From assembly GCA_005787665.1 (NCBI GenBank), contig SYAB01000041.1, forward strand, positions 1 to 14,955: a stretch of 14,955 bases of DNA, given 5' to 3'. The position numbers and the translations under genes were made by a program. The notes under the pieces were generated by a model. That model made no database searches and was not told where the DNA came from. It was given only the letters and a program-made list of their open reading frames with translations. Shown in pieces: positions 1 to 14,955 of this stretch (its first letter is position 1; the number at the start of each line of letters is the position of its first letter). The DNA is from Actinomycetota bacterium (lineage in GTDB: Bacteria > Actinomycetota > Actinomycetes > Mycobacteriales > Mycobacteriaceae).

Positions 1-2
1 CC

Positions 3-545
3 ACCCCGGTCGCGATCAGCGACACCGTCACGATCCCGGGCTATGAGATCGGAACGCCGCGCCTGACGGTCGTCAACCATCATTATCCGACGAACTTCGG
101 TGACCTGTCCGGCCCGCCTGAGCAGGACTACTCGCGGATCACCCTGGAACTGCCGGTCACCCGCGACGTGTTGCCCTACCTGGTCAAGATTATGCTGCCG
201 ATCATCATCGTCATCCTGATCACGTCGTTGATCTACATCATTCCCGCCCGTTTCGAGGAGGCCCGCACCGGCATCGGGGTCACCACGATGCTGACGATGG
301 TCGCCCTGCAGTGGTCCACCGACTCCGACCTGCCGTCTGTCGAGTACCTGACCATGCTCGACCTGGTCTACATCCTGTCCATGCTCTACATCCTGGTGGC
401 CATGGGTTACGCCGTCTTCGCCAGCCGTCGATCCCGCAAGGACGCCGCCGAGGCACTCCTGACCGCCCTGGACCGGCGCGTCGGCATCATCTCGCTGGTG
501 GTCTACGTGGTCCTGATCGCCACCACCATGATCTCCTACCTCTAG
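3..545 (+). CDS. Pentameric ligand-gated ion channel (prokaryotic Cys-loop receptor homologue), 3' part
   Basis: Partial gene; the reading frame is open to the left edge, so most of the extracellular ligand-binding domain lies outside. About 180 residues are visible. The end of the beta-sandwich domain (YSRITLELPVTRD, residues 43-55) leads into M1 (about 57-76, with the conserved proline in KIMLPII), M2 (about 86-105, EARTGIGVTTMLTM), M3 (about 114-139) and, after a short basic cytoplasmic loop (SRRSRKD), M4 (about 159-180). The short M3-M4 loop is the bacterial form (GLIC, ELIC). Family knowledge: five subunits form a ligand-opened ion pore in the cytoplasmic membrane. M2 has Glu at -2' as in cation-selective GLIC, while G2', T6', L9' and T10' resemble the glycine receptor. 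The ligand cannot be inferred from what is visible. A GTG at 168 opens an ORF, but it lies at the start of M1 and is internal. Stop TAG at 543-545; the next gene starts 20 nt later, suggesting an operon. Family assignment is strong; ion selectivity is inferred. Confidence 0.88.
   Translation, partial: TPVAISDTVTIPGYEIGTPRLTVVNHHYPTNFGDLSGPPEQDYSRITLELPVTRDVLPYLVKIMLPIIIVILITSLIYIIPARFEEARTGIGVTTMLTMVALQWSTDSDLPSVEYLTMLDLVYILSMLYILVAMGYAVFASRRSRKDAAEALLTALDRRVGIISLVVYVVLIATTMISYL
258..317 (+). other. Pore-lining M2 segment of the ligand-gated channel
   Basis: This codes for EARTGIGVTTMLTMVALQ and following residues. In pLGIC numbering E is -2', R 0', G 2', T 6', L 9' and T 10'. The TT-x-LTM core is that of vertebrate GlyR/GABA-A receptors, whereas the acidic -2' residue is at the position of GLIC E222. 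The hydrophobic 9' leucine, a typical gate residue, is kept. The alignment was made by eye from remembered family sequences. Confidence 0.75.
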
Positions 546-4740: not shown

Positions 4741-6000
4741 CTAGGGGCCGGGGTCCCGGGGCCGAATCGGCTCCGGGACCTCCGGCGTCGGGCCCTCCGG
4801 CGGCGGAGCCTGGACCGGCTCGTGCCCGGCGGGCAGGTGGTCGGGGGGCTCCACGCGCAACTTGTGCGCCACCGGGACATCGGTCGAGGAATGCAGGATG
4901 ATCGACAGCGCGATCGTGACGGCGATCAGGTCGAAGAGCTTCTCGCCGTTGGGTATTCCGGCTTGCAGCACGAGTAGGCCGTAGACCACGGAGGCGAATC
5001 CCTTCGGTCCGAACCAGGCCGCGGTGAGCCGTTCGGCGCGCGGCATCGGCGTTCTGATCAGGGACAGCAGCATCGAGGCCGGCCGCACCAGCACGATGGC
5101 CAGCACCGCTAGCAGCCAGCCCTGCCAACCCAGATGCGATAGTCGGTCCGGGGTGATCAGGGCGCCGAAGAGCAGCAGGGCCGCGAATTTGGTCAGCTCC
5201 GAGAGCAGGTCGCCGAACGGTTCGAAGGTCTCCGCGGCGACATGGTCGAGGGTGGCCAACGCCGACCCGGCGGCGAACGCGGCCAGGTACGGATTGGCAT
5301 GGGTGAGGTGGCATCCCGCGTACACCACGATCGCGATCGCGACCGGGCCCAGGGGCTGTAACCGCGGTTCGGCGGTCAGGATGTTGCTGCGCCAGGCGAT
5401 CGCGACCACCGCAGCGACGCCGACCCCGATCGCCAGGCCGAGGACCAACTCACCCAGGACCAGGCCCAGGTGGGATTCCTCGTGTTTGGCCAGTGCGAGG
5501 AAGATCAGCACGAAGGGCAGCGCCAGACCGTCGTTGAGGCCGGACTCGACGTTGAGCAGCCGTCGCAGCCGCTGAGGGATGTCGGGCCGGCCGACCAACG
5601 CCGAGGCGAACACCGGGTCGGTGGGGGACAGGATCGCCCCGAGAAGAAGTGCCGTAGGCCAGTCCAGGTTGACCAGGTAGTGCGCCGGGACCGCGATTCC
5701 GATCATGGCCAGCGGCATGCCGAGGCCCAGAGCGCGCCCGGACAATCGCCACCCGTCGCGCAGGGCCGGGACGCTGGCCCGCTGCCCGTCGGTGAACAGC
5801 ACCGTGAACAGGGCGATATCGGCGAGCACCGCCACGATCTCGTCGTCGGCGCTGATATCGACCACACCGAATCCGCCCGGGCCCAGCAGCGCCCCCGCGA
5901 TCAGGAAAAGCAGCGCAGTGGAGAGCACCGTGCGGGCCGCCAACCCGGACAGCGAGACGCTGATCAGCAACACCACGCCGAACGCCAGGACAAGGATCAC
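4741..6000 (-). CDS. CPA1 family Na+(K+)/H+ antiporter (NhaP-like)
   Basis: 419 residues. A cytoplasmic-membrane cation/proton exchanger for pH and sodium homeostasis. Helices begin at the N-terminus. The family markers are in order: ILSPTDPVFASALVG (123-137, the TDP motif of the unwound helix), ESGLNDGLALP (152-162, with the Asn156-Asp157 ion-binding pair typical of electroneutral CPA1 members), an arginine in helix 10-11 (VRPASM, about 306), and the WFGPKGFASVVYGLL signature (329-343). The C-terminus (about 383-419) is a proline-rich hydrophilic tail. Start GTG 6000 has GGGAG (6011-6007 on the complement) six bases upstream. It is divergent from the M15 peptidase gene and convergent with the GjpA-like gene, so probably transcribed alone. 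Ion preference cannot be read from sequence. Confidence 0.9.
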   Translation of the reverse strand: MILVLAFGVVLLISVSLSGLAARTVLSTALLFLIAGALLGPGGFGVVDISADDEIVAVLADIALFTVLFTDGQRASVPALRDGWRLSGRALGLGMPLAMIGIAVPAHYLVNLDWPTALLLGAILSPTDPVFASALVGRPDIPQRLRRLLNVESGLNDGLALPFVLIFLALAKHEESHLGLVLGELVLGLAIGVGVAAVVAIAWRSNILTAEPRLQPLGPVAIAIVVYAGCHLTHANPYLAAFAAGSALATLDHVAAETFEPFGDLLSELTKFAALLLFGALITPDRLSHLGWQGWLLAVLAIVLVRPASMLLSLIRTPMPRAERLTAAWFGPKGFASVVYGLLVLQAGIPNGEKLFDLIAVTIALSIILHSSTDVPVAHKLRVEPPDHLPAGHEPVQAPPPEGPTPEVPEPIRPRDPGP

Positions 6001-6110
6001 GCCGGTCTCCCAGGTAGGTTCCGCTTCCGCCGAGGCTCATGGTGCATGGCACACCGCGGCCGCCGGCGTGATTCCGGGAAAGAAGGCCCTTCTGGGAGAA
6101 TGAGCCCGTC
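6001..6110. promoter_or_regulatory. Divergent promoter region between antiporter and M15 peptidase
   Basis: 110 bases with no gene. Both transcripts must start here. TAGGTT at 6015-6020 fits TANNNT on the + strand and could be a -10 for the peptidase gene; no convincing -35 was found. GGGAGA at 6094-6099 is the likely ribosome site for ATG 6111, though at a long 11-base spacing. GGGAG on the complement serves the antiporter. Confidence 0.35.
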
Positions 6111-6620
6111 ATGCGCATCTCCGTCCTACTCGGCGTTCTACTCGGCGTCCCCGCCGCGGTCGGCTTCGGTACCGCGCCCGGGCCGCAGATCCGGCTGGTG
6201 GACAGCACCATCCAGATGTTGTCGCCGTACGACGTGGCCAATCCGGCGGTCGGCAACCTCGACCCGGTCCTGCTCGGCGCCGTGCAGCAGGCCGCCGCGG
6301 CCGCCGCGGCCGACGGAGTCGCGATGACCATCACCTCCGGATGGCGTTCGGTGCAGTTCCAGCAGCAGCTCCTCGACGAGGCGGTGCTCACCCACGGCAG
6401 CCTGGGCGCCGCGTTGGCGTTCGTGCAGACTCCCGAGGTTTCCCGGCACGTACTCGGTCACGCCGTCGACATCGGCGGCCCCGAGGCCGATCAGTGGCTG
6501 ATCGTCAATGGTTCCCGTTTCGGGCTGTGTCAGATCTACGCCAACGAGCCCTGGCATTTCGAACTCGCGACGGACGCGGTCGGAAACTGTCCACCGCTAC
6601 GCGCGACCGCCGCCGGATAG
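6111..6620 (+). CDS. Secreted M15 family (VanY/DacY-like) D,D-carboxypeptidase
   Basis: 169 residues. A zinc peptidase that trims D-Ala-D-Ala or related bonds of peptidoglycan stem peptides outside the membrane. An N-terminal signal segment (MRISVLLGVLLGVPAAVGFG, about 1-20) is followed by a short catalytic domain. Visible motifs: SGWRS with substrate-binding Arg79; SRHVLGHAVDIG (111-122), giving zinc ligands His113 and Asp120; and NEPWHFE (145-151), giving general base Glu146 and zinc ligand His149. Cys140 and Cys160 could form a disulfide after export. This compact form, with GLCQIYANEPWHFE, is common in mycobacteria. It contains no cell-wall-binding domain. The next gene begins 9 bases after its stop. 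Catalytic residues are complete, so activity is expected; whether it acts as D,D- or L,D-peptidase is not certain. Confidence 0.87.
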   Translation: MRISVLLGVLLGVPAAVGFGTAPGPQIRLVDSTIQMLSPYDVANPAVGNLDPVLLGAVQQAAAAAAADGVAMTITSGWRSVQFQQQLLDEAVLTHGSLGAALAFVQTPEVSRHVLGHAVDIGGPEADQWLIVNGSRFGLCQIYANEPWHFELATDAVGNCPPLRATAAG

Positions 6621-6629
6621 AGTTCGACC
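6618..6629 (+). promoter_or_regulatory. -10 box inside the M15 stop codon for a leaderless DsbA-like transcript
   Basis: TAGAGT (6618-6623) is a full match to TANNNT. It begins with the TAG stop of the peptidase gene and ends six bases before GTG 6630, the spacing seen for mycobacterial leaderless genes whose mRNA begins at the start codon. No Shine-Dalgarno is present before GTG 6630. Confidence 0.45.
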
Positions 6630-7322
6630 GTGCCCGCCCAACCCGATTACGTCGACTTCCACGTCGACATCATGTGTCCCTACGCCTACCAGACCTCGCG
6701 CTGGATCCGCGAGGTCCGCGACCAGACCGGGCTGGTGGTGAATTGGCGGTTCTTCAGCCTCGAGGAGATCAACCGGGTCGAGGGCAAGAAGCACCCGTGG
6801 GAGCGGGAGTGGTCCTACGGCTGGTCGATGATGCGGATCGGCGCACTGCTGCGCCGTCGGTCGATGGCCGATCTCGACGCCTGGTACGAGCGGGCAGCGC
6901 GCGCCCTGCATGTCGAAGGGCACAAGCCGCACGAGAAGGCCGTCGCCCGGCATCTGCTGGCCGAGTTGGGCCTCGAACCCGCACTCGTCGACGAGGCGAT
7001 CGCCGATCCGAGCACCGGAGAGGAGGTGCTGGCCGACCACCGGCGGGTCGTGGAGGCCGGCGGCTACGGGGTGCCCACGCTGTTCTTCCCCGACGGCCAG
7101 TGCCTGTTCGGCCCGGTGCTCATCGACCCGCCGACCGGTGCGGCGGCGGTGCGACTGTGGGATGCGGTCCGGGCCTGGACCGAATTCCCGCACCTCTACG
7201 AGCTGCAGCGGCCCAAGACCGAGTCCGATGCCCAGTTGATCACCGAGACGTTCCGCCCCTATCTGGAGGCCCGCGACTGGGTGTCGATCAACCGCGGCGA
7301 GGTGATCACCTTCCCGGAGTGA
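6630..7322 (+). CDS. DsbA-family thioredoxin-fold protein resembling mycothiol-dependent reductase Rv2466c, with CPYA active site
   Basis: 230 residues, no signal peptide, so cytoplasmic. It has the DsbA layout: a first strand YVDFHVDIM leading to the active site Cys16-Pro-Tyr-Ala19, an inserted helical domain (about 55-135), then the thioredoxin cis-proline motif YGVPTLFF (Pro149). The C-terminal FGPVLIDPP and the [23 protein letters not shown] region resembles, from memory, the end of M. tuberculosis Rv2466c, a mycothiol-dependent nitroreductase/oxidoreductase with a CPWC site. Here the second cysteine is Ala, so only the mycothiol-reactive first cysteine remains, suggesting monothiol chemistry (for example S-mycothiolated intermediates) or an isomerase-like role as in other DsbA relatives. 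GTG 6630 is preferred as the first start after the peptidase stop, with a well-placed -10 box before it. Confidence 0.8.
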
Positions 7323-7352
7323 GGTTCACGAGGACGGGCCGGTGCCGGACTC

Positions 7353-8375
7353 TCAGTAGCCGGTCCAGCCACCGTCGGTGGGGAAGACGCCGCCGGTGAA
7401 GTTCGACGCCTCGGGGGACAGCAGGAACAACATCATCGACACTTGCTCGGCGACCGTTGCCGGACGGTGCTGCGGATCGGCGTACGCGAGCAGGCTGAAC
7501 GTCTTGGCGCGGCCCATATTCGGCTCGGTGGACAGGTTGGATTTCGCCGCCTCGGCCACGAGGATGCCGGCCCGTTCCACCATCGGGGTGTCTGTTGCGG
7601 CCATGTTGACCGAATTCACCCGGATTCCATACGGCGCATAGTCGATGGCGGCGTTGCGGGTCAATCCATTGACGGCGTGCTTGCTCGCGACATAGGCGGG
7701 ATTGCCCGCCAGCCCCGTCATCCCGGCGATGGAGGCGACGTTGACGATCGCTCCGCCGCGTCCCTGGGCGACCATCTGCCGCAGTTCTGCTCGCATACTG
7801 TTGAACACGCCGGTCGAGTTGGTACGGAACACCCGATCCCAGTACTCGTCGGTCGCCTCGTGGATCGGCGCGAAGATCAGGGGCTTCTGCTTCTGGTAAT
7901 CGATGGGCTCTCCGGAGAACACCCCGTCCATCACCCCGGCGTTGTTGATCGCGAGGTCCACGCCGCCGTAGGTGTCGACGGCGACTCTCACCATCCGTGC
8001 GCAGGTCTCGGGCGCACCGACGTCGCCGTCGACGAACGTCGCTTTGCCGCCCGCCGCGACGATATCGGCGATGGTCTTGGTTCCCAGGTCGGTGATCCAG
8101 TCAATGCCAACGACGTTGGCACCTTCGCGGGCAGCCCGCCGGGCCGCGCCCGCGCCCATACCGCGGGCACACCCGGTGATGATGATCGTCTTGCCCTTGA
8201 ATCGGTCGGCGATGATCGCCTCGGCGTCGGGTGGGTTGATCGGAACCGACTCGTTCAGCGGTTGGGTGGGCGGCACGGCTTCCTCCTGCTCCTCGGGCTT
8301 CTGGCAGGCGGCCAGCACCGCCCCGGACGCCGCGACCCCGGCCACGCCCAGCAACATTTCGCGGCGATCGATCAT
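7353..8375 (-). CDS. Tat-exported lipoprotein short-chain dehydrogenase/reductase (SDR)
   Basis: 340 residues. The N-terminus is unusual for an SDR: a twin-arginine motif (DRREMLLG, Arg4-Arg5), a hydrophobic stretch and a lipobox LAAC with Cys24, then a polar Glu/Pro linker to about 57. The rest is a complete classical SDR: TGCARGMG nucleotide-binding loop (67-74), Asp92 after the second strand (favours NAD(H)), DGDV (116-119), NNAG (144-147), Asn186, Ser215 and Tyr228-x3-Lys232. The insertion around residues 155-175 recalls the mycofactocin-associated and related actinobacterial SDRs. Predicted to be exported folded, with its cofactor, and anchored on the outer face of the membrane; substrate unknown. 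Its ATG 8375 overlaps the IIC stop (ATGA) and GGGAG lies 4 bases upstream, so it is translated with the PTS operon. The frame stays open upstream, but that part is shadow of the IIC gene. Confidence 0.87.
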   Translation of the reverse strand: MIDRREMLLGVAGVAASGAVLAACQKPEEQEEAVPPTQPLNESVPINPPDAEAIIADRFKGKTIIITGCARGMGAGAARRAAREGANVVGIDWITDLGTKTIADIVAAGGKATFVDGDVGAPETCARMVRVAVDTYGGVDLAINNAGVMDGVFSGEPIDYQKQKPLIFAPIHEATDEYWDRVFRTNSTGVFNSMRAELRQMVAQGRGGAIVNVASIAGMTGLAGNPAYVASKHAVNGLTRNAAIDYAPYGIRVNSVNMAATDTPMVERAGILVAEAAKSNLSTEPNMGRAKTFSLLAYADPQHRPATVAEQVSMMLFLLSPEASNFTGGVFPTDGGWTGY

Positions 8376-9931
8376 CGGTCTCCCATCGGCGGAGGCGGTA
8401 CGGGCGCGCCAGCCGGCGGGGAAATCTTGGGATAGCTCCGGCCGGTGTTCACCGTGGCGCCGGTGGCTTCGACGCCGTCCGGTCTGGGCCGGCCGGGAGA
8501 GGGATTCCAGTCGGTGTCGACCAGTCGGCGTTGCACCCCGACCGCCAGTGCCAGCAAGCCGGCGCCGATCAGCAGCATCGTGACCACGCCCCAGACCGAT
8601 CCCAGCTTGGCGGCGTTGCCGAGAAGCACTCCGTACCAACCGAAGTCGGCGTCGCCGAAGGTGGTGTTCTCCGAACCGAAGGACCCGAGCACCCGCACCA
8701 GCAGGGCGGGCAGGAAGGTGATGATCAGTCCGTTGACGAAACCTCCGGCCACCGCGCCGCGCCGGCCGCCGGTGGCGTTGCCGTACACCCCGGCCGCCCC
8801 GCCGGTGAAGAAATGCGGCACCAGGCCGGGCAGTACCAGCACCCAGCCGAATGCCGGGCCCAGCCACAGCGAGAGCACCGCCAGCCCGACCAGACCCCCG
8901 GTGAAACTGGCGACGAAGCCGATGAGCACCGCGTTCTGGGCGTAGGGGAAGACGATCGGGGCATCCAGCGCGGGCACCGCCCCGGGCACCATCCGCTCGG
9001 CGATGCCCTGGAACGCCGGAACCAGTTCGCCGAGGATGGTGCGCACCCCGAACAGGATCACCGCGACGGCCACCCCGAATCCGAGTCCCTGCGTGACGCC
9101 CATCATCAGGTAGTTGCCGACCCCGGTGGCCGCTCCGCTGCCGGAGTCGTCGGCGAAGGCGGCGAACGCGGTGTCCCCGCCCGCCTTCGCCAGATAGATC
9201 AGCGACACCGCGAGGTACATCAGCACCATCGAGAGCGCGGTGGCCACCATCGAGTCGCGGAGAAAGCGCAGCGACTCCGGGAGTTTGAGATCCTCGGTGG
9301 ACCGGCTCTTCGCGCCGCCGGTGAAGCGGCCGGTGATGCCGGCCGCGATGTAGCCCAGCGTGCCGAAGTGCCCGATCGCGATGCTGTCGTCGCCGGTGAT
9401 CCGTTTGGTCCACGGTTGCGATATCGCCGGCAGCGATACCATCACCACCCCGAGCAGCAGGCCGCCGAGCAGAACCACCGTGGCGCCCGGCAGCCCGGCG
9501 CTGGCCAGCACGATGGTCAGCAGGGTGGCCATGAACAGGGTGTGGTGGCCGGTCAGGAACACATAGTGCAGTGGGGTGAACCGGGCCAGCAGCAGGCTGA
9601 TCGCGAAGCCCAGGATCATCAGCCAGGCGACTTGGGCGCCGAACTGCTTCTGCGCGATCCCGACGATGGCCTCGTTGGTGGGGACCACACCCTGCGTGCC
9701 GGCGGCCCCCTGGATCATGATGCCGAGCGGCTTGAGCGAGGCCACCACCAGGGTGGCGCCCGCACCGATCAGCAGGAAGCCCAGTGTGGCCTTGAGCGCG
9801 CCGCCGATCACCTGCCCGGTGCTCTTGCGCAGGGCGATCAGACCGACCGCGGTGATGATGCCGATGAGATAGGCAGGGACGGCGAGGATTTCGTTGACGA
9901 CGAACTCGGCGATGGCGACCAACCAGTTCAT
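8372..9931 (-). CDS. PTS system ascorbate-type IIC component (UlaA/SgaT family)
   Basis: 519 residues. The membrane channel of a phosphotransferase system that imports a sugar acid such as L-ascorbate while it is phosphorylated. Family markers: KSTGQVIGGALKATLGFLLIGAGA (about 36-59), FTPLHYVFLTGHHTLFMA (118-135) and QPWTKRITGDDSIAIGHFG (172-190), a close match to the UlaA repeat motif. Many hydrophobic segments follow, with further inverted-repeat elements (GYLMMG/LGFGVAV, about 285-305; DAPIVFPYAQNA). The last about 45 residues are a proline-rich cytoplasmic tail. ATG 9931 has GGAGAG five bases upstream (9942-9937, complement). It sits 17 bases after the IIA-IIB gene and overlaps the SDR by 4 bases. 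No ulaG lactonase, isomerase or regulator gene is in the window, so ascorbate itself is not certain as substrate. EI and HPr must be encoded elsewhere. Confidence 0.9.
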   Translation of the reverse strand: MNWLVAIAEFVVNEILAVPAYLIGIITAVGLIALRKSTGQVIGGALKATLGFLLIGAGATLVVASLKPLGIMIQGAAGTQGVVPTNEAIVGIAQKQFGAQVAWLMILGFAISLLLARFTPLHYVFLTGHHTLFMATLLTIVLASAGLPGATVVLLGGLLLGVVMVSLPAISQPWTKRITGDDSIAIGHFGTLGYIAAGITGRFTGGAKSRSTEDLKLPESLRFLRDSMVATALSMVLMYLAVSLIYLAKAGGDTAFAAFADDSGSGAATGVGNYLMMGVTQGLGFGVAVAVILFGVRTILGELVPAFQGIAERMVPGAVPALDAPIVFPYAQNAVLIGFVASFTGGLVGLAVLSLWLGPAFGWVLVLPGLVPHFFTGGAAGVYGNATGGRRGAVAGGFVNGLIITFLPALLVRVLGSFGSENTTFGDADFGWYGVLLGNAAKLGSVWGVVTMLLIGAGLLALAVGVQRRLVDTDWNPSPGRPRPDGVEATGATVNTGRSYPKISPPAGAPVPPPPMGDR

Positions 9932-9948
9932 TCGAGCTCTCCGTTCGC

Positions 9949-10722
9949 TCAGACGTCGTAGGAATCGCGCAGTGCGGCGTCGATCTCGCGGGTCGAGGTG
10001 AAGTTCTCGATCACCCGCACCGGAACGCCCACATCGCCTAGGGTCTTGGCGATCTCGCCCGAGGTCATGATCAGGTCGGCCTCCTTGGCGCGGCCCTTGG
10101 CCGAAATGGTGTCGGTGGCCTCGACGGCGATGAACGGCGCCCAGCCCCAGGTGCTGAGCACCTGCTCGAGAGTGTTCTTCAGAAAGAGGCTGGTGCCCAA
10201 ACCGTTTCCACACACGGTGAGGATCAGGTTGGTGTTGGCCCGGGACGGTTCGGTGACTGATGGTCGCGGGGCCGACGTGCCGCCGAGGGCGGCCAGCACG
10301 TCGGCGGGGGTTGCGGCGGCATCCAGTGCCGCACGCCGCCCGGCATCGCCCAGGAGTGTGGCCAGTTCGGCCATCGCGGCGGCGTGCGCGCCGTCGTCGG
10401 TGGCGGCCAACGCGACCACCAGGACGACCGGATCGTTGGTCTTGTGCCCGAAGGCGATCGGGTTCGTCAATCGCACCCACGACATTCCGGTGCGGTGGAC
10501 GGCCGCTGACGGGCGGGCGTGGGCGAAGGCGAAGCCGGGGGCCACCACGATGTAGGGACCGTTGAGCGTGACGTTGTCGATCATCGACCCGGTGTAGGCG
10601 GGTCCGGCGATCCCGGCACGCTCCAGCAGGGCTCCGGCGGCCAGGAGGGATTCCTCCCATGTCGCCGCGGGAACGTCCAGGGCGATGCAGTCCTCGGTGA
10701 GAAGCTCGGTCAGACCCGACAT
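9949..10722 (-). CDS. PTS fused IIA-IIB protein (ascorbate/mannitol-type IIA plus SgaB-type IIB)
   Basis: 257 residues, cytoplasmic. Residues 1-147 form a fructose/mannitol-superfamily IIA domain with the phosphorylated histidine in FAHARP (His68). A short Pro/Ser linker (about 148-163) leads to a IIB domain (165-257) that begins LILTVCGNGLGTSLFL, with phosphocysteine Cys171 in the C-x-G-x-G-T-S loop of the lactate/ascorbate IIB type. The phosphate path is thus HPr to His68 to Cys171 to the substrate in UlaA. In E. coli these are separate proteins (UlaC, UlaB); here they are fused in the order A-B. ATG 10722 is chosen because the IIA domain begins there; GGAG sits only one base before it, too close for a normal ribosome site, while TAAATA ends 7 bases upstream, so a leaderless start is plausible. 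First gene of a three-gene operon. Confidence 0.88.
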   Translation of the reverse strand: MSGLTELLTEDCIALDVPAATWEESLLAAGALLERAGIAGPAYTGSMIDNVTLNGPYIVVAPGFAFAHARPSAAVHRTGMSWVRLTNPIAFGHKTNDPVVLVVALAATDDGAHAAAMAELATLLGDAGRRAALDAAATPADVLAALGGTSAPRPSVTEPSRANTNLILTVCGNGLGTSLFLKNTLEQVLSTWGWAPFIAVEATDTISAKGRAKEADLIMTSGEIAKTLGDVGVPVRVIENFTSTREIDAALRDSYDV

Positions 10723-10842
10723 GCTCCGGTATTTAACACCGCGACGGAGGGCGACTTCGTCGTATCCGCGCACGCGATGCGCGCGGTCCGGGCTTTCCTG
10801 ATCGGCCGCGCGGCGGGCACGGATTCTGGCAAACTTCGCGAG
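10723..10842. promoter_or_regulatory. Divergent intergenic region of PTS operon and CaCA antiporter
   Basis: 120 bases without a gene of their own. On the complement, TAAATA (10735-10730) stands 7 bases before ATG 10722; on the + strand, CAAACT (10830-10835) stands 7 bases before GTG 10843. Both suit leaderless mycobacterial starts, although each departs from TANNNT at one position. Between them is an inverted repeat CGCGCA-cgcga-TGCGCG (10767-10783), a possible operator. A related CCGCGCGG lies at 10806-10813. Confidence 0.4.
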
Positions 10843-11997
10843 GTGACGACCGCCGCCCCCGAGAAGCTTCCGCTGTTGAGTGGGCGCGACCGCATCATGA
10901 TCACCGTCACGGTCATCGCGGCGGCGGCCGCCGGCGCCCTGCACTTCGCTCATTCCAATGCGGTGGTGGCCTTCGTGGTCGCCGCGGTCGCGCTGGCCAC
11001 GTTGGCCTCGCTGGTCGGGCGATCGGTGGAAGCGCTGGGTGACCGCCTGGGCCCGAGCGCCACCGGTGTGTTGCAGTCCGCGCTGGGCAACCTGCCGGAG
11101 TTGTTCGTCATCCTGTTCGCGCTCAAGGCCGGCCTGTACGGCGTGGTCAAGGCGACGCTGGTCGGCTCGATCCTGGCGAACGTGTTGCTGATCCTCGGGC
11201 TGGCCTTCGTGGTGGGCGGGCTCAAGCACGGACGGCAGCGCTTCGCCGCCAACGACGTCCGCACCCTGGGACTGATGCTCACGCTGGCAGTGTTCATCCT
11301 GGCGGTGCCGTCGCTCACCTCGGCGCTGCACACCCCGGCGGAATCCCATGAGCGGATGGTGTCGGTGGTGGTGTCCATCGTCATGCTGGCGCTGTTCGCG
11401 CTGTCGTTGCCGGCAACGCTCTCGCGCGGCAAAGCCGCCCAGGGCCCCGACGATGGGCATCTGAAGGCCGGCTCCTCGCCCATCGCAGCCAGCCCTGAAT
11501 CGGCCAGGGCCGCCAGTAAGGCTGCGGCACATGGCGAATGGCCGCTGGCGATGGCGATCGGGATGCTGGCCGCGACAGGTATTGGCGCGGCGTTCGTCTC
11601 GGAATGGTTCGTCGCCGCCCTGCAGCCGGCCATGGACGCCGCCGGAATCAACGAGGTGTTCGCCGGTCTGGTCATCGTGGCCATCGCCGGTAACGCGGTG
11701 GAGAACGTGGTCGGCATCCAACTGGCGGCCAAGAACCAGATGGACTACGGGGTGCAGGTGATCCTGCAGTCACCGGTTCAGGTGGCGCTCACCATCGCCC
11801 CGATCGTCTGCCTGTCTGCGGCCCTGCTCGGCCAGCCGGGATTTGACCTGGTGTTCTCGCCGCTGCTGCTGGCGGCCATGGTGATGTCGGCTCTGGTGGC
11901 GGTGGTGGTGACCTTCGACGGCGAGTCGAACTGGTTCGAGGGTGCGGCCCTCATCGCGCTCTACATCGCCATCGCGACCTCGTTCTGGTGGGGTTAG
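10843..11997 (+). CDS. CaCA family Ca2+/H+ antiporter (ChaA/Cax-like)
   Basis: 384 residues. An inner-membrane exchanger that expels Ca2+ (possibly also Na+ or K+) against protons. Two homologous alpha repeats are visible: SALGNLPELFVILFALKAG (79-97, Glu86) with VKATLVGSILANVLLILG (102-119), and IAGNAVENVVGIQLAAKNQ (281-299, Glu288) with the QVILQSPVQVALTIAP stretch. The G-N-x-x-E pairs supply the ion-binding glutamates. The halves are joined by a polar cytoplasmic loop (about 194-232), as in the CAX branch. GTG 10843 is preferred: it gives a short cytoplasmic N-tail and has a CAAACT box 7 bases upstream; an in-frame upstream extension would only add poorly conserved, Arg-rich sequence. The secreted nuclease gene follows 28 bases after its stop. 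Confidence 0.9.
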   Translation: MTTAAPEKLPLLSGRDRIMITVTVIAAAAAGALHFAHSNAVVAFVVAAVALATLASLVGRSVEALGDRLGPSATGVLQSALGNLPELFVILFALKAGLYGVVKATLVGSILANVLLILGLAFVVGGLKHGRQRFAANDVRTLGLMLTLAVFILAVPSLTSALHTPAESHERMVSVVVSIVMLALFALSLPATLSRGKAAQGPDDGHLKAGSSPIAASPESARAASKAAAHGEWPLAMAIGMLAATGIGAAFVSEWFVAALQPAMDAAGINEVFAGLVIVAIAGNAVENVVGIQLAAKNQMDYGVQVILQSPVQVALTIAPIVCLSAALLGQPGFDLVFSPLLLAAMVMSALVAVVVTFDGESNWFEGAALIALYIAIATSFWWG

Positions 11998-12024
11998 TCT
12001 CGGGCCGGAAGCAACCGGGGGGAG
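11995..12024 (+). promoter_or_regulatory. Candidate -10 in the CaCA stop codon and RBS of the HNH gene
   Basis: TAGTCT (11995-12000) fits TANNNT and begins with the TAG stop of the antiporter gene. Transcription would begin near 12007, leaving a very short leader with GGGGGGAG (12017-12024) directly before GTG 12026. The ribosome site is unusually close, so the start rests mainly on the signal peptide that follows. Confidence 0.35.
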
Positions 12025-12025
12025 T

Positions 12026-12670
12026 GTGACGCGAAAGACGCTGGCTGCCAGCGCTGTCCTGATCGGACTGCTGGTTCCCGCGCCGGCCGCCGCCGACGCG
12101 CCGCCCGACACTCTGGCCACCCTCGACTCGCTGGAGATCAAGGGGCGCGCTCCGAAGACCGGCTACGAGCGGGAGTTGTTCGGTGACCGCTGGACCGACG
12201 ACGTGTGGGTCGAGTTCGGGCACAATGGTTGTGACACCCGCAACGACATCCTGCGCCGGGATCTCATCGATATCGTCATCAAGCCCGACACCAACGGGTG
12301 CGCGGTGCTCAGTGGGGTCCTCAACGACCCCTACACCGGCACCACCGTCGATTTCCTGCGGGGCCCGAACACCTCCGCCGACGTCCAGATCGACCATGTG
12401 GTTGCCCTCTCGGACGCCTGGCAGAAGGGCGCCCAGCAGTGGGACGAGATCACCCGGCGCAACTTCGCCAACGACCCGCTCAACCTGCAGACCACGATCG
12501 GGTGGGTGAACCAGGAGAAGGGCGACGGCGATGCCGCGACGTGGTTGCCGCCCGACAACTCCTACCGTTGCACCTTCGTCACCCGGATCGTCGACGTCAA
12601 GGCCGCCTACCGGCTGTGGGTCACCCAGGCCGAGCACGATGCGATCGCCCGGGTGCTCGAGCAGTGTTGA
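12026..12670 (+). CDS. Secreted HNH-family nuclease (DUF1524/GmrSD C-terminal-like fold)
   Basis: 214 residues. A signal peptide (TRKTLAASAVLIGLLVP, about 2-18) with likely cleavage after Ala23 directs export. The mature part follows the pattern of actinobacterial extracellular HNH nucleases: GYERELFG, CDTRNDILRRDL (69-80), the metal/catalytic DHVVALSDAW (Asp123-His124), FANDPLNLQ (Asn149 and Asn153) and NQEKGDGDAATWLPP (162-176), where family members usually read N-R-x-K-G. Four cysteines (69, 92, 182, 214) could form two disulfides, consistent with life outside the cell. Expected to cut DNA with a divalent metal, for nutrient scavenging, biofilm DNA turnover or competition; which of these is unknown. 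GTG 12026 is the only start that places the signal peptide at the N-terminus. No immunity gene is evident next to it. Confidence 0.87.
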   Translation: MTRKTLAASAVLIGLLVPAPAAADAPPDTLATLDSLEIKGRAPKTGYERELFGDRWTDDVWVEFGHNGCDTRNDILRRDLIDIVIKPDTNGCAVLSGVLNDPYTGTTVDFLRGPNTSADVQIDHVVALSDAWQKGAQQWDEITRRNFANDPLNLQTTIGWVNQEKGDGDAATWLPPDNSYRCTFVTRIVDVKAAYRLWVTQAEHDAIARVLEQC

Positions 12671-12673
12671 GGC

Positions 12674-13957
12674 TCAGAGCACGCTGACCGGGTCGCGCAC
12701 CCCGCGCAACACCAACGTGAACAGATCCTGGCGCTGCCTCGCCTCGCCGGCGCCGTCATCGGAGATCAGCAGCACGCTGTAGGTACCGTCATCGAGCCTG
12801 GGGCCCAGCGTGATTCCCTCGAAGTTGTTGGTGAGGAACACGCTCTGCCAGATCAGCCGTTTGGCCACCGGCGTGAAGCCGCCGTCGGCGAGGCTCGGCA
12901 GGGCCGACACGTCGGTGGCGCCGGTGAAGTCGAGCAGGTAGACCCGCGACCGGAAGGAGGGCAGGAAGCCGCCCAACTCCCGTTCGAGGGCCAGCACCCG
13001 CCCGTCCGGAAGTGCGAGCAGATCGACCAGTCCGCTGCGCTCGGCGGTGGTGAACGGCGAGAGGGCACTGATCCGCTCGGTGCGGTAGGCGTACTGCGCC
13101 AGCGCCGCGACATCCTCGCCGCCGAACTCCTGCAGGCGGACCCAGGTTCCCGACCGGGTGGTGGACAGCGCGCCGTCGGACTTCAGGGCCTCCTCGTTGG
13201 CGGTCCAGAGCCGTCCCGCTCCGAAACTGAGCGCCTCCAGGCCAAAGTTGTTCTGCACGTTGGCCGGCCGATAGATCTCGGGCACCGGGACGGCGCCGAC
13301 CCTGGCCCCGGTGGCGAGGCTGAATTCGCCTATGGTGGAGGTGGATTCGTCGGCTATCCAGGCGGTGCCGGTGCCGGGGCGCAGCGCGATGCCCTCGGCA
13401 TCACTACCCATTCCCGGCGCGCTGATGGCGCCGGCGATGGTGGCGGAGTTGACCCAGCCGAACCCCGCGGCCAATACGGTGGCGAGCTGGAAGATGGAGG
13501 TGGCGCCGTTGTCGCCCACTGCGTAGTAGGTGGAGCCGCCGCCGTAGGTGATCCCGCTCAGTTCGGCGGCACCGGTGGAGCCACTCTTCAGCGGGTAGCG
13601 GCCCTGACCGGTGGGGGTCAGCATCAGCCTGGGCTGGGCCACCGCGGCGGTCGACACCGTCGGGGGTGCGGCGCTGCGCCCCCGACGGGCGGTGGCCGAG
13701 GTGGTTGACGTGGCTGAGGCGGCCGGGGTGCGGGCGGCGACGGCCCTCGAGCGCGGTCCGGCGCTCTCGGCGGTGCCGGCGCTGTCGGCGGATCGTCGCG
13801 CCGGGGAACTGACCGAGTCGCGGTCCCCCCGGCTGTCATCGGCCCAGGCCGGGGCTGCGGCGGCCAGGGCCGCCGTGCCGAGTCCGATGCCGAGTCCGAT
13901 GCCGAGGGCGACCGCAAGTCCGCCGGCACGTCCCACGGCGGTCGGGGAGAAGGCCAC
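12674..13957 (-). CDS. Secreted phytase-like/esterase-like beta-propeller protein (PF13449 type)
   Basis: 427 residues. A signal peptide with GIGLGIGLG repeats ends near AWA-D (residue 39/40). It is followed by a low-complexity Ser/Ala/Arg/Thr linker (about 41-105), then a domain (about 120-427) like the 'esterase-like activity of phytase' family. Visible marks are LSGITYGGGSTYYAVGDNG, GSDAEGIALRPGTGTAWIADE, LEALSFGAGRLWTANEEAL, LLALPDGRVLALEREL and the characteristic end NNFEGITLGPRLDDG followed by LLISDDGAG. The acidic D/E-E-G motifs suggest metal-assisted propeller blades. Described members have phosphatase/esterase-type activity, but substrates are poorly known. GTG 13957 directly follows the TAA of the DUF4185 gene with no gap and no clear ribosome site; an in-frame GTG seven codons later would also give a good signal peptide. 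It runs convergently into the HNH gene with 3 bases between stops. Confidence 0.8.
   Translation of the reverse strand: MAFSPTAVGRAGGLAVALGIGLGIGLGTAALAAAAPAWADDSRGDRDSVSSPARRSADSAGTAESAGPRSRAVAARTPAASATSTTSATARRGRSAAPPTVSTAAVAQPRLMLTPTGQGRYPLKSGSTGAAELSGITYGGGSTYYAVGDNGATSIFQLATVLAAGFGWVNSATIAGAISAPGMGSDAEGIALRPGTGTAWIADESTSTIGEFSLATGARVGAVPVPEIYRPANVQNNFGLEALSFGAGRLWTANEEALKSDGALSTTRSGTWVRLQEFGGEDVAALAQYAYRTERISALSPFTTAERSGLVDLLALPDGRVLALERELGGFLPSFRSRVYLLDFTGATDVSALPSLADGGFTPVAKRLIWQSVFLTNNFEGITLGPRLDDGTYSVLLISDDGAGEARQRQDLFTLVLRGVRDPVSVL
13878..13906 (-). repeat. 12-bp tandem repeat in the phytase-like signal peptide
   Basis: CCGAGTCCGATG occurs twice in a row, followed by CCGAG (2.4 copies on the + strand). 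On the coding strand it yields the GIGLGIGLG hydrophobic core. The unit is a multiple of three, so gain or loss of copies would change signal-peptide length without a frameshift. Confidence 0.8.
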
Positions 13958-14955
13958 TTAGACCAGTGCGGTGACGGGAGCGAGGGGGCTCAGGTCGGTC
14001 TGCATCAGAACGACGTTGTAATTGCTCCAGATCGACATATTCCAGTACAGGTTGGACTCGTCGGGGTCACCGTTGGAGTCCTTGAGATCACCGGTGCCCG
14101 AGAGCGGGTGGATCATCGGCGCATAGAGCCCCGGGTACTGGATTGAGGTCGCGAGCGTGACCGGATCCGACCATGGCCCCTCCGGGGTGTCGGCGGTGCG
14201 CAGGATGACGTTGTTGGCGCCGTTGCCGTACAGCACGACGTACTTGTCGAGGTACTCGTTGTACTGGACCGACATCTCGCTGACGTTGCCGCCGGTCTTC
14301 GCGCCGAACAGCCCGGCGAACCAGCCGCCGAAGAACTTCGGGTTGTTTGCCAGGTCCTTGACGAAGCCGAACAGACCGCTGGAGTTCGGCGAGTCGCCGA
14401 TGATGGGCGCGGCCACGGCGGGCTTGTCGCGCACCCAGCTGCCGCCGTCCCAGTACTCGTACTGCCCCAGGTCGGTGATGGCGCCCTCGGGCACCCGGGA
14501 CAGGAACGCCGAGCCCTGCCGGCCGGCCGGGGTGCCGAACGCGTAGATGTAGCGGGTCTCCCCGGGGGCGACCTTTTCTTCCGGCTGCAGCACGTAGGCC
14601 ATCTGCTGGAAGTTCTGGCTCCCCGCGACGTACGGGGTCGAGGAGCGGAACCAGCCCGCGGAGCGCACACTCGAACTCTGCAGAACCCACTTGTCGGTGT
14701 TCTCGTCGTACATCGAGATCGCCGAGTAGTTCGTGGTCCAGCGACCGGGGGAATCCCACGACTTCACCGACATGTAGTTGACGTAGTTCTCGCTGTTGGC
14801 GTAGACCGCAGCGGTCGGGATGTTGGTGACCTCGGAGCCGATGAAGAACACCTGGTTTCGGGCAGCCGGGATGAACTGGTAGGCGTACCCGGTCTCTTCC
14901 AGCGTCAGGCCGTTGTAGAGCTGGGTGTCGTTGCTGATCAACAGGACGTTGGAGC
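13958..14955 (-). CDS. DUF4185 protein (GH183-type endo-D-arabinanase family), C-terminal part
   Basis: Partial gene: the frame is open to the right edge (first visible residues SNVLLISNDT), so signal peptide and N-terminal blade(s) lie outside; 331 residues are visible, ending at TAA 13960-13958. Blade-like repeats are seen: WTTNYSAISMYDENTDKWV, FQQMAYVLQPEEK, YIYAFGTPAGRQGSAFLSRV, EMSVQYNEYLDKYVVLYGNG and VILRTADTPEGPWSDPV, then LYAPMIHPL and LYWNMSIWSNYNVVLMQTDL at the end. This is the DUF4185 pattern, common in mycobacteria. From memory, members of this family were shown to be endo-acting D-arabinanases (GH183) that cut the arabinan of arabinogalactan and lipoarabinomannan. A glycine-rich hydrophobic insert (about GLFGFVKDLANNPKFFGGW) is unlike the propeller pattern. 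The phytase-like gene follows immediately. Family call is good; activity of this copy is untested, since catalytic acids are probably upstream. Confidence 0.8.
   Translation of the reverse strand, partial: SNVLLISNDTQLYNGLTLEETGYAYQFIPAARNQVFFIGSEVTNIPTAAVYANSENYVNYMSVKSWDSPGRWTTNYSAISMYDENTDKWVLQSSSVRSAGWFRSSTPYVAGSQNFQQMAYVLQPEEKVAPGETRYIYAFGTPAGRQGSAFLSRVPEGAITDLGQYEYWDGGSWVRDKPAVAAPIIGDSPNSSGLFGFVKDLANNPKFFGGWFAGLFGAKTGGNVSEMSVQYNEYLDKYVVLYGNGANNVILRTADTPEGPWSDPVTLATSIQYPGLYAPMIHPLSGTGDLKDSNGDPDESNLYWNMSIWSNYNVVLMQTDLSPLAPVTALV

Follow-up and report, generated by a model that had tools for sequence, protein, structure and literature searches.

A gene fragment from a mycobacterium-type genome encodes a pentameric ligand-gated ion channel subunit that is probably cation-selective

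Does the open frame at the left edge of a 14,955-nucleotide stretch of actinobacterial DNA (contig SYAB01000041.1 of assembly GCA_005787665.1, Mycobacteriaceae; here called the window) encode part of a pentameric ligand-gated ion channel (pLGIC), as an earlier note had proposed from the letters alone, and if so, what kind of channel? The frame runs uninterrupted from the left edge as far as the stop codon at 543–545 and specifies 180 residues, with bases 1 and 2 left as a partial codon. Because the antisense strand over the same stretch is likewise open, for 275 codons, the open frame alone is weak evidence and homology decides. PF02932 (Neur_chan_memb) was the sole Pfam match of the product (E value 4.3e-6), and phmmer comparison of the fragment with PDB chains returned GABA-A receptor constructs, the bacterial channel ELIC and glycine-receptor chains, from an E value of 6.4e-11. 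The protein database yielded 53 relatives at E values of 0.001 or less, and a profile built from 57 full-length relatives matched ELIC, GLIC, glycine-receptor and GABA-A receptor chains at E values of 6e-21 to about 1e-12. The Pfam and ELIC/GLIC comparisons thus bear out the identity first proposed.

Selection on the frame was assessed using the ratio of non-synonymous to synonymous substitution rates (dN/dS), which was 0.26–0.46 between the window gene and each of 15 genes compared from its own clade (clade A, defined below); differences to the gene at locus L018 fell 43/20/77 over the codon positions. We therefore conclude that the window frame is under protein-level constraint. Ratios of 0.64–0.72 were obtained against two genes of a second clade (clade B), where saturation makes the value unsafe. 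Weak single-sequence Pfam scores are what might be expected of an unrelated four-helix membrane protein that resembles a pLGIC by chance, but this explanation, to which we assign next to no probability, is refuted by the profile matches of the relatives to pLGIC chains and by the fold comparison. That the fragment belongs to a real bacterial pLGIC subunit gene is, in our judgement, practically certain.

To place the gene among its relatives, we aligned the window product with 167 sequences, comprising 160 proteins of 310–405 residues and seven from fetched loci, with shorter pieces excluded. The product was at least 50% identical to 147 of them (clade A) and less than 45% identical to the other 20 (clade B), with none between. 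Its identity to clade B was 28–35%. The tree, for which the window product has residues in 48% of the alignment columns, groups it with P0176 and P0178 (support 99/98); P0176, its closest relative at 81% identity over 180 columns, carries an FPFD Pro-loop. Counting M2 positions by hand from Leu 9', we found acids at -3' and -2', Arg 0', Gln 15', Trp 16' and the pre-M1 Arg in the window as in clade A, and by alignment and tree the gene is a member of this mycobacterial clade.

Every residue listed as most conserved in the superfamily in Table 1 of PMC4795631 is present where it falls inside the window (Y14, R54, P66 and P111). Y14 is the beta-9 aromatic, aligned by hand with the Trp of ELIC and GLIC; Tyr is given there as an 11% variant. 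Arg54 is found in 147/147 clade-A sequences, as are the M1 and M2–M3 prolines, and the same holds for R88 (0') and L97 (9'), positions at which passages of PMC4795631 describe a basic residue and Leu as relatively conserved. The Pro-loop, which lies upstream of the window, reads YPFD in 135, FPFD in 11 and YPSD in one of the 147. A Cys-loop pair was not conserved in clade A over the stretch counted (no Cys in 119/147, one in 27 and two in one; the loop of the window gene itself lies upstream). Judged in these relatives only, the disulfide pair of Cys-loop receptors in the narrow, metazoan sense is therefore missing. The window channel has its fold in common with metazoan GABA-A and glycine receptors but differs from them in belonging to a clade without this pair, in having no long M3–M4 loop and in carrying an acid rather than Pro at -2'.

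A predicted model of the fragment (predicted local distance difference test, pLDDT, 78.5) contains four helices corresponding to M1–M4 (Table 1), short strands at residues 14–16, 20–27, 42–49 and 52–54, and an M3–M4 link of about three residues. The four-helix membrane domain described earlier, with its M1 proline, M2, short M3–M4 loop and M4, is thus recovered. All 50 Foldseek matches listed for this model were GABA-A, glycine, GluCl or RDL receptors; the fold comparison re-ranks Foldseek's own matches, and the absence of other folds there is uninformative. GLIC, the proton-gated channel of Gloeobacter, was 16–18% identical in the structure comparison, in wild-type or point-mutant rows. The earlier note had the ligand-binding domain continuing to the left of the window. 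This holds for most of its beta-sandwich, which is seen in the relatives; a piece of the domain lies inside, since residues 14–54 span strand beta-9, loop C, strand beta-10 and the linker that precedes M1.

Table 1 Mapped parts of the pLGIC gene fragment in the window.
Feature	Position	Strand	Basis
pLGIC subunit gene, C-terminal 180 codons and stop	3..545	+	open frame, PF02932, PDB matches, 53 relatives, constraint
beta-9 aromatic (Y14), loop C (Y28...Y43), beta-10, pre-M1 linker with Arg54	42..164	+	model strands; residue conservation; hand-read ELIC alignment
M1 helix with conserved Pro66	171..239	+	model helix 57-79; Pro in 147/147 clade A, 20/20 clade B
M2 pore helix: Glu -3', Glu -2', Arg 0', Leu 9', Ala 13', Trp 16', Asp 19'	255..326	+	model helix 85-108; column counts
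M2-M3 linker Pro111	333..335	+	Pro in 147/147 clade A, 20/20 clade B
M3 helix	339..440	+	model helix 113-146
M4 helix after very short M3-M4 link	450..539	+	model helix 150-179

Which ions would such a channel pass? All 147 clade-A sequences carry Glu at -3', and all carry an acid at -2' (Glu in 94, Asp in 53), followed by Ala or Ser at -1'. Ala 13', Gln 15' and Trp 16' are as invariant as Arg 0' and Leu 9' (147/147 each), and 19' is acidic in 145/147. GLIC, placed from its Ile 9', likewise has Glu at -2' and 19', and differs from the window in having Asn at 0' in place of Arg and Ile at 16' in place of Trp. In ELIC, from Erwinia/Dickeya, Glu229 falls one place higher by M2 counting, across a two-residue alignment gap, whereas the acids of the window stand at -2' and -3'. 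From these conserved pore residues, with acids at -3', -2' and 19' and Trp at 16', we predict that the channel selects for cations and that its upper gate is aromatic, and consider cation selectivity of the window channel probable. The alternative is an anion-conducting pLGIC resembling the GABA-A and glycine receptors, which head several of the match lists; GABA-A constructs are the best single-sequence PDB matches, GABA-A and glycine receptors come first among the Foldseek matches of the fragment, and the GABA-A stretch ART.GVTT.LTM is common to the window. The difference lies at -2': a GABA-A construct reads Pro-Ala-Arg from -2' to 0', with the next residues much like those of the window, but its -2' Pro is Glu here. 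The acids that clade A keeps at this position, at -3' and at 19' make anion conduction unlikely in our view.

The ELIC ring of Phe246 is described in PMC3119659 as unique to that channel. Phe246 aligns with Trp 16' of the window, which clade A keeps throughout, and clade B, found in the same genus-level group, is also aromatic at this position (Trp in 11, Phe in 9 of 20). Clade B further has Asp at -2' in 20/20 and Pro at M2 4' in 12/20.

The part of the ligand-binding domain inside the window suggests what might open the channel. The principal side of the ELIC pocket includes Glu131, Phe133, Tyr174 and Phe187, according to passages of PMC3119659. In our hand-read alignment, Tyr174 corresponds to window Tyr28, a Tyr in 147/147 clade-A and 20/20 clade-B sequences, and Phe187 corresponds to window Tyr43, which is Tyr or Phe in all 167 relatives. 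Glu131 aligns with a loop-B position beyond the window, at which 120 of the 147 clade-A sequences have Glu and 27 have Lys. A ligand pocket is therefore likely to be present, judging from these residues. Because the loop C aromatics and, in most relatives, the loop-B Glu match the amine pocket of ELIC, a small amine or amino-acid-like molecule is our first guess at the ligand, although we hold an amine-type ligand to be less likely than not. One ligand class for all of clade A is not likely. In P0054, P0068, P0082 and their relatives the loop-B residue is the Lys counted above, and Cys replaces the Arg of window residue 45 in 28/147; these changes may mark a subgroup with another ligand. Gating might instead depend on protons, loss of Ca2+ or some other modulator, with no small molecule acting from the loop C pocket; GLIC, opened by acid (PMC3119659), and DeCLIC, opened by calcium depletion (PMC9897478), are precedents. 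The near-invariance of the loop C aromatics in clade A is what a used pocket would leave, an indirect argument, and we regard modulator gating as a possibility clearly short of even odds.

We propose, as the probable best explanation overall, that the gene encodes a bacterial pLGIC subunit working as a cation-conducting receptor for outside solutes. The exported N-terminal ligand-binding domain would face the outside of the plasma membrane, and five subunits, from one gene or from mixed paralogues, would form the pore. A small ligand would bind between subunits beneath loop C, and the signal would reach M2 through contact between the Pro-loop Asp and the pre-M1 Arg. The Leu 9' and Trp 16' rings would then open and let cations pass, selected by the acidic rings at -2'/-3' and 19', so that the cell would depolarize or take up cations on meeting the solute. 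Function past 'probably a cation-selective ligand-gated channel' is what we infer. Several observations weigh against the proposal. The PF02932 score of 27.6 bits is 0.5 under the cut-off of 28.1, and one relative taken by itself, P0166, gave no Pfam match at 1e-3; the TM-scores of the fragment are middling (0.50–0.63 over the query). The run of M2 from -1' to 11' is nearer anion-selective GABA-A receptors, and the Lys in loop B perhaps means more than one ligand class. For the window gene itself, the Pro-loop and the bulk of the ligand-binding domain lie beyond the edge, and both are seen in relatives only. Related copies decay, so the window gene could be broken upstream.

The last point amounts to a further explanation, namely that the window holds the open membrane half of a decaying copy whose break lies to the left. 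In genome G001, the relative on contig 92 (locus L052, 3929–4707) consists of N- and C-terminal pieces that adjoin in different frames, with the middle absent; the Mycobacterium adipatum record P0024 has only 182 residues and by eye lacks M4; and many listed relatives are pieces of 128–129 residues starting inside M1. Set against these, the 180 open codons and the dN/dS values within clade A make decay of the window gene improbable, and a working channel subunit remains our preferred explanation. The short relatives, as listed from P0031 to P0050, are pieces of about 101–137 residues on contigs of up to 59 kb; they may reflect genuine breakage, a different choice of start or an artefact of the contig.

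Matches were found in 22/396 genomes of the nearest genus-level group, that of G001, with G001 included; one of these genomes, G505, has only a short piece. The five matches in G001 include a broken one, and two of the four in G703 are distant or partial. The wider samples gave 1/401 genomes at family level (G001 itself), 3/298 at order level (G001 and two weak matches) and 6/396 at phylum level (G001 and five much weaker matches). Those protein relatives that carry an organism name are labelled Mycobacterium, Mycolicibacterium or Mycobacteriaceae; the one exception is P0057 (Candidatus Nanopelagicales). Two loci of the phylum sample, L066 and L067, from genomes of 1.5 and 1.7 Mb, encode divergent pLGICs with a YPLD Pro-loop that are far from both clades. 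The phage collection gave no pLGIC match and the plasmid collection nine records at 25–28% identity, from Azospirillum and Streptomyces; neither gave any sign of a recent mobile origin.

Clade B departs from the usual coupling between the two domains. Passages of PMC4795631 describe a salt bridge between the Pro-loop Asp and the pre-M1 Arg, conserved at 93% and 94%, respectively, and clade A keeps both residues (147/147). In all 20 aligned clade-B sequences, Ser replaces the pre-M1 Arg, and the Pro-loop has Glu (11) or Gln (9) as its fourth residue. The gating salt bridge therefore cannot form in the usual way in L045–L050 and their relatives, both partners being changed. L007 and L031, inside clade B by the tree and outside that count, keep the Asp and by hand reading lack the Arg. 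The link between clade B and a changed coupling pair is strong, although not absolute.

A TAP-like alpha/beta hydrolase (PF00561 and PF08386; one member scanned) adjoins the channel in 5 of 25 neighbourhoods, drawn from 31 genome matches. Two of these loci belong to clade A, with convergent genes, and three to clade B (L040, L041, L047, L048 and L049 in all); hydrolase and channel are co-directional with a 4-nucleotide overlap in L049 and probably in L048, and divergent in L047. A hand count of PF08386 matches of at least 60 bits gave about 75 over the 22 genomes, roughly 3.4 each, and chance adjacency should therefore be rare. B-type hydrolases are also found without a channel next to them (L054–L057), and the five genomes with the pair are related, so we keep the hydrolase as an idea and do not claim it as an established partner. 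A more speculative, rather improbable picture drawn from these sequences is chemo-electrical sensing, possibly by heteropentamers, in which some mycobacteria would carry small sets of paralogous channels for different ligands: clade A would have a Glu-type and a Lys-type loop B, clade B would gate without the Asp/Arg pair, and in clade B an exported TAP-like hydrolase, at times sharing an operon with the channel, would make or remove its ligand.

Among the nine window frames scanned with Pfam, an MgtC/DUF4010 protein gene starts 20 nucleotides after the channel stop. Also downstream are genes for an amino-acid permease, a Na+/H+ exchanger, a VanY peptidase, an Rv2466c-like protein, a phosphotransferase system (PTS) permease, a Na_Ca_ex antiporter and a GmrSD_C protein. 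None of the MgtC, permease and Na+/H+ exchanger genes had a counterpart in the neighbourhoods of relatives compared. For MgtC/DUF4010 these numbered 21, several of them cut by contig ends, and we do not claim it as a conserved channel partner. At L051 (G001 contig 77), a channel paralogue stands between GmrSD_C and Na_Ca_ex genes; in the window, these two genes lie 10 kb from the pLGIC gene with no channel between them, from which we conclude that channel genes change places. As a single case without a pattern, this does not tie a Ca2+/H+ antiporter to the channel. Window positions 8372–14953 and L051 positions 4869–12299 have a block in common that comprises the PTS genes, Na_Ca_ex, GmrSD_C and a DUF4185-like gene, labelled by eye.

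No paper on a mycobacterial pLGIC appeared among the open papers listed in our literature search, in line with the earlier remark that no functionally described member was known. The main texts of PMC549065 and PMC4795631, apart from species in figures and supplements, contain no word beginning mycobacter or actinobacter. According to parts of PMC4795631, no biological role has been established for any pLGIC of a unicellular organism. Passages of PMC7930380, which name no gene, report that acetylcholine speeds growth of the tuberculosis bacterium and suggest an ancestral nicotinic-type receptor. The window gene falls in a lineage within a known superfamily, and we found no description of that lineage in the literature searched; the novelty lies in the host group, in the occurrence of multi-copy sets and in the departure of clade B from the coupling pair.

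These results establish as real a pLGIC lineage that a minority (22/396) of the sampled mycobacterium-type genomes carry, and carriers can be compared with non-carriers in one genus-level group. The sets of five matches in G001 (one broken) and four in G703 (some distant or partial) contrast with the single gene found in most bacterial genomes that have any, according to passages of PMC549065. The Trp 16' ring and the altered coupling pair of clade B provide natural tests of models of gating.
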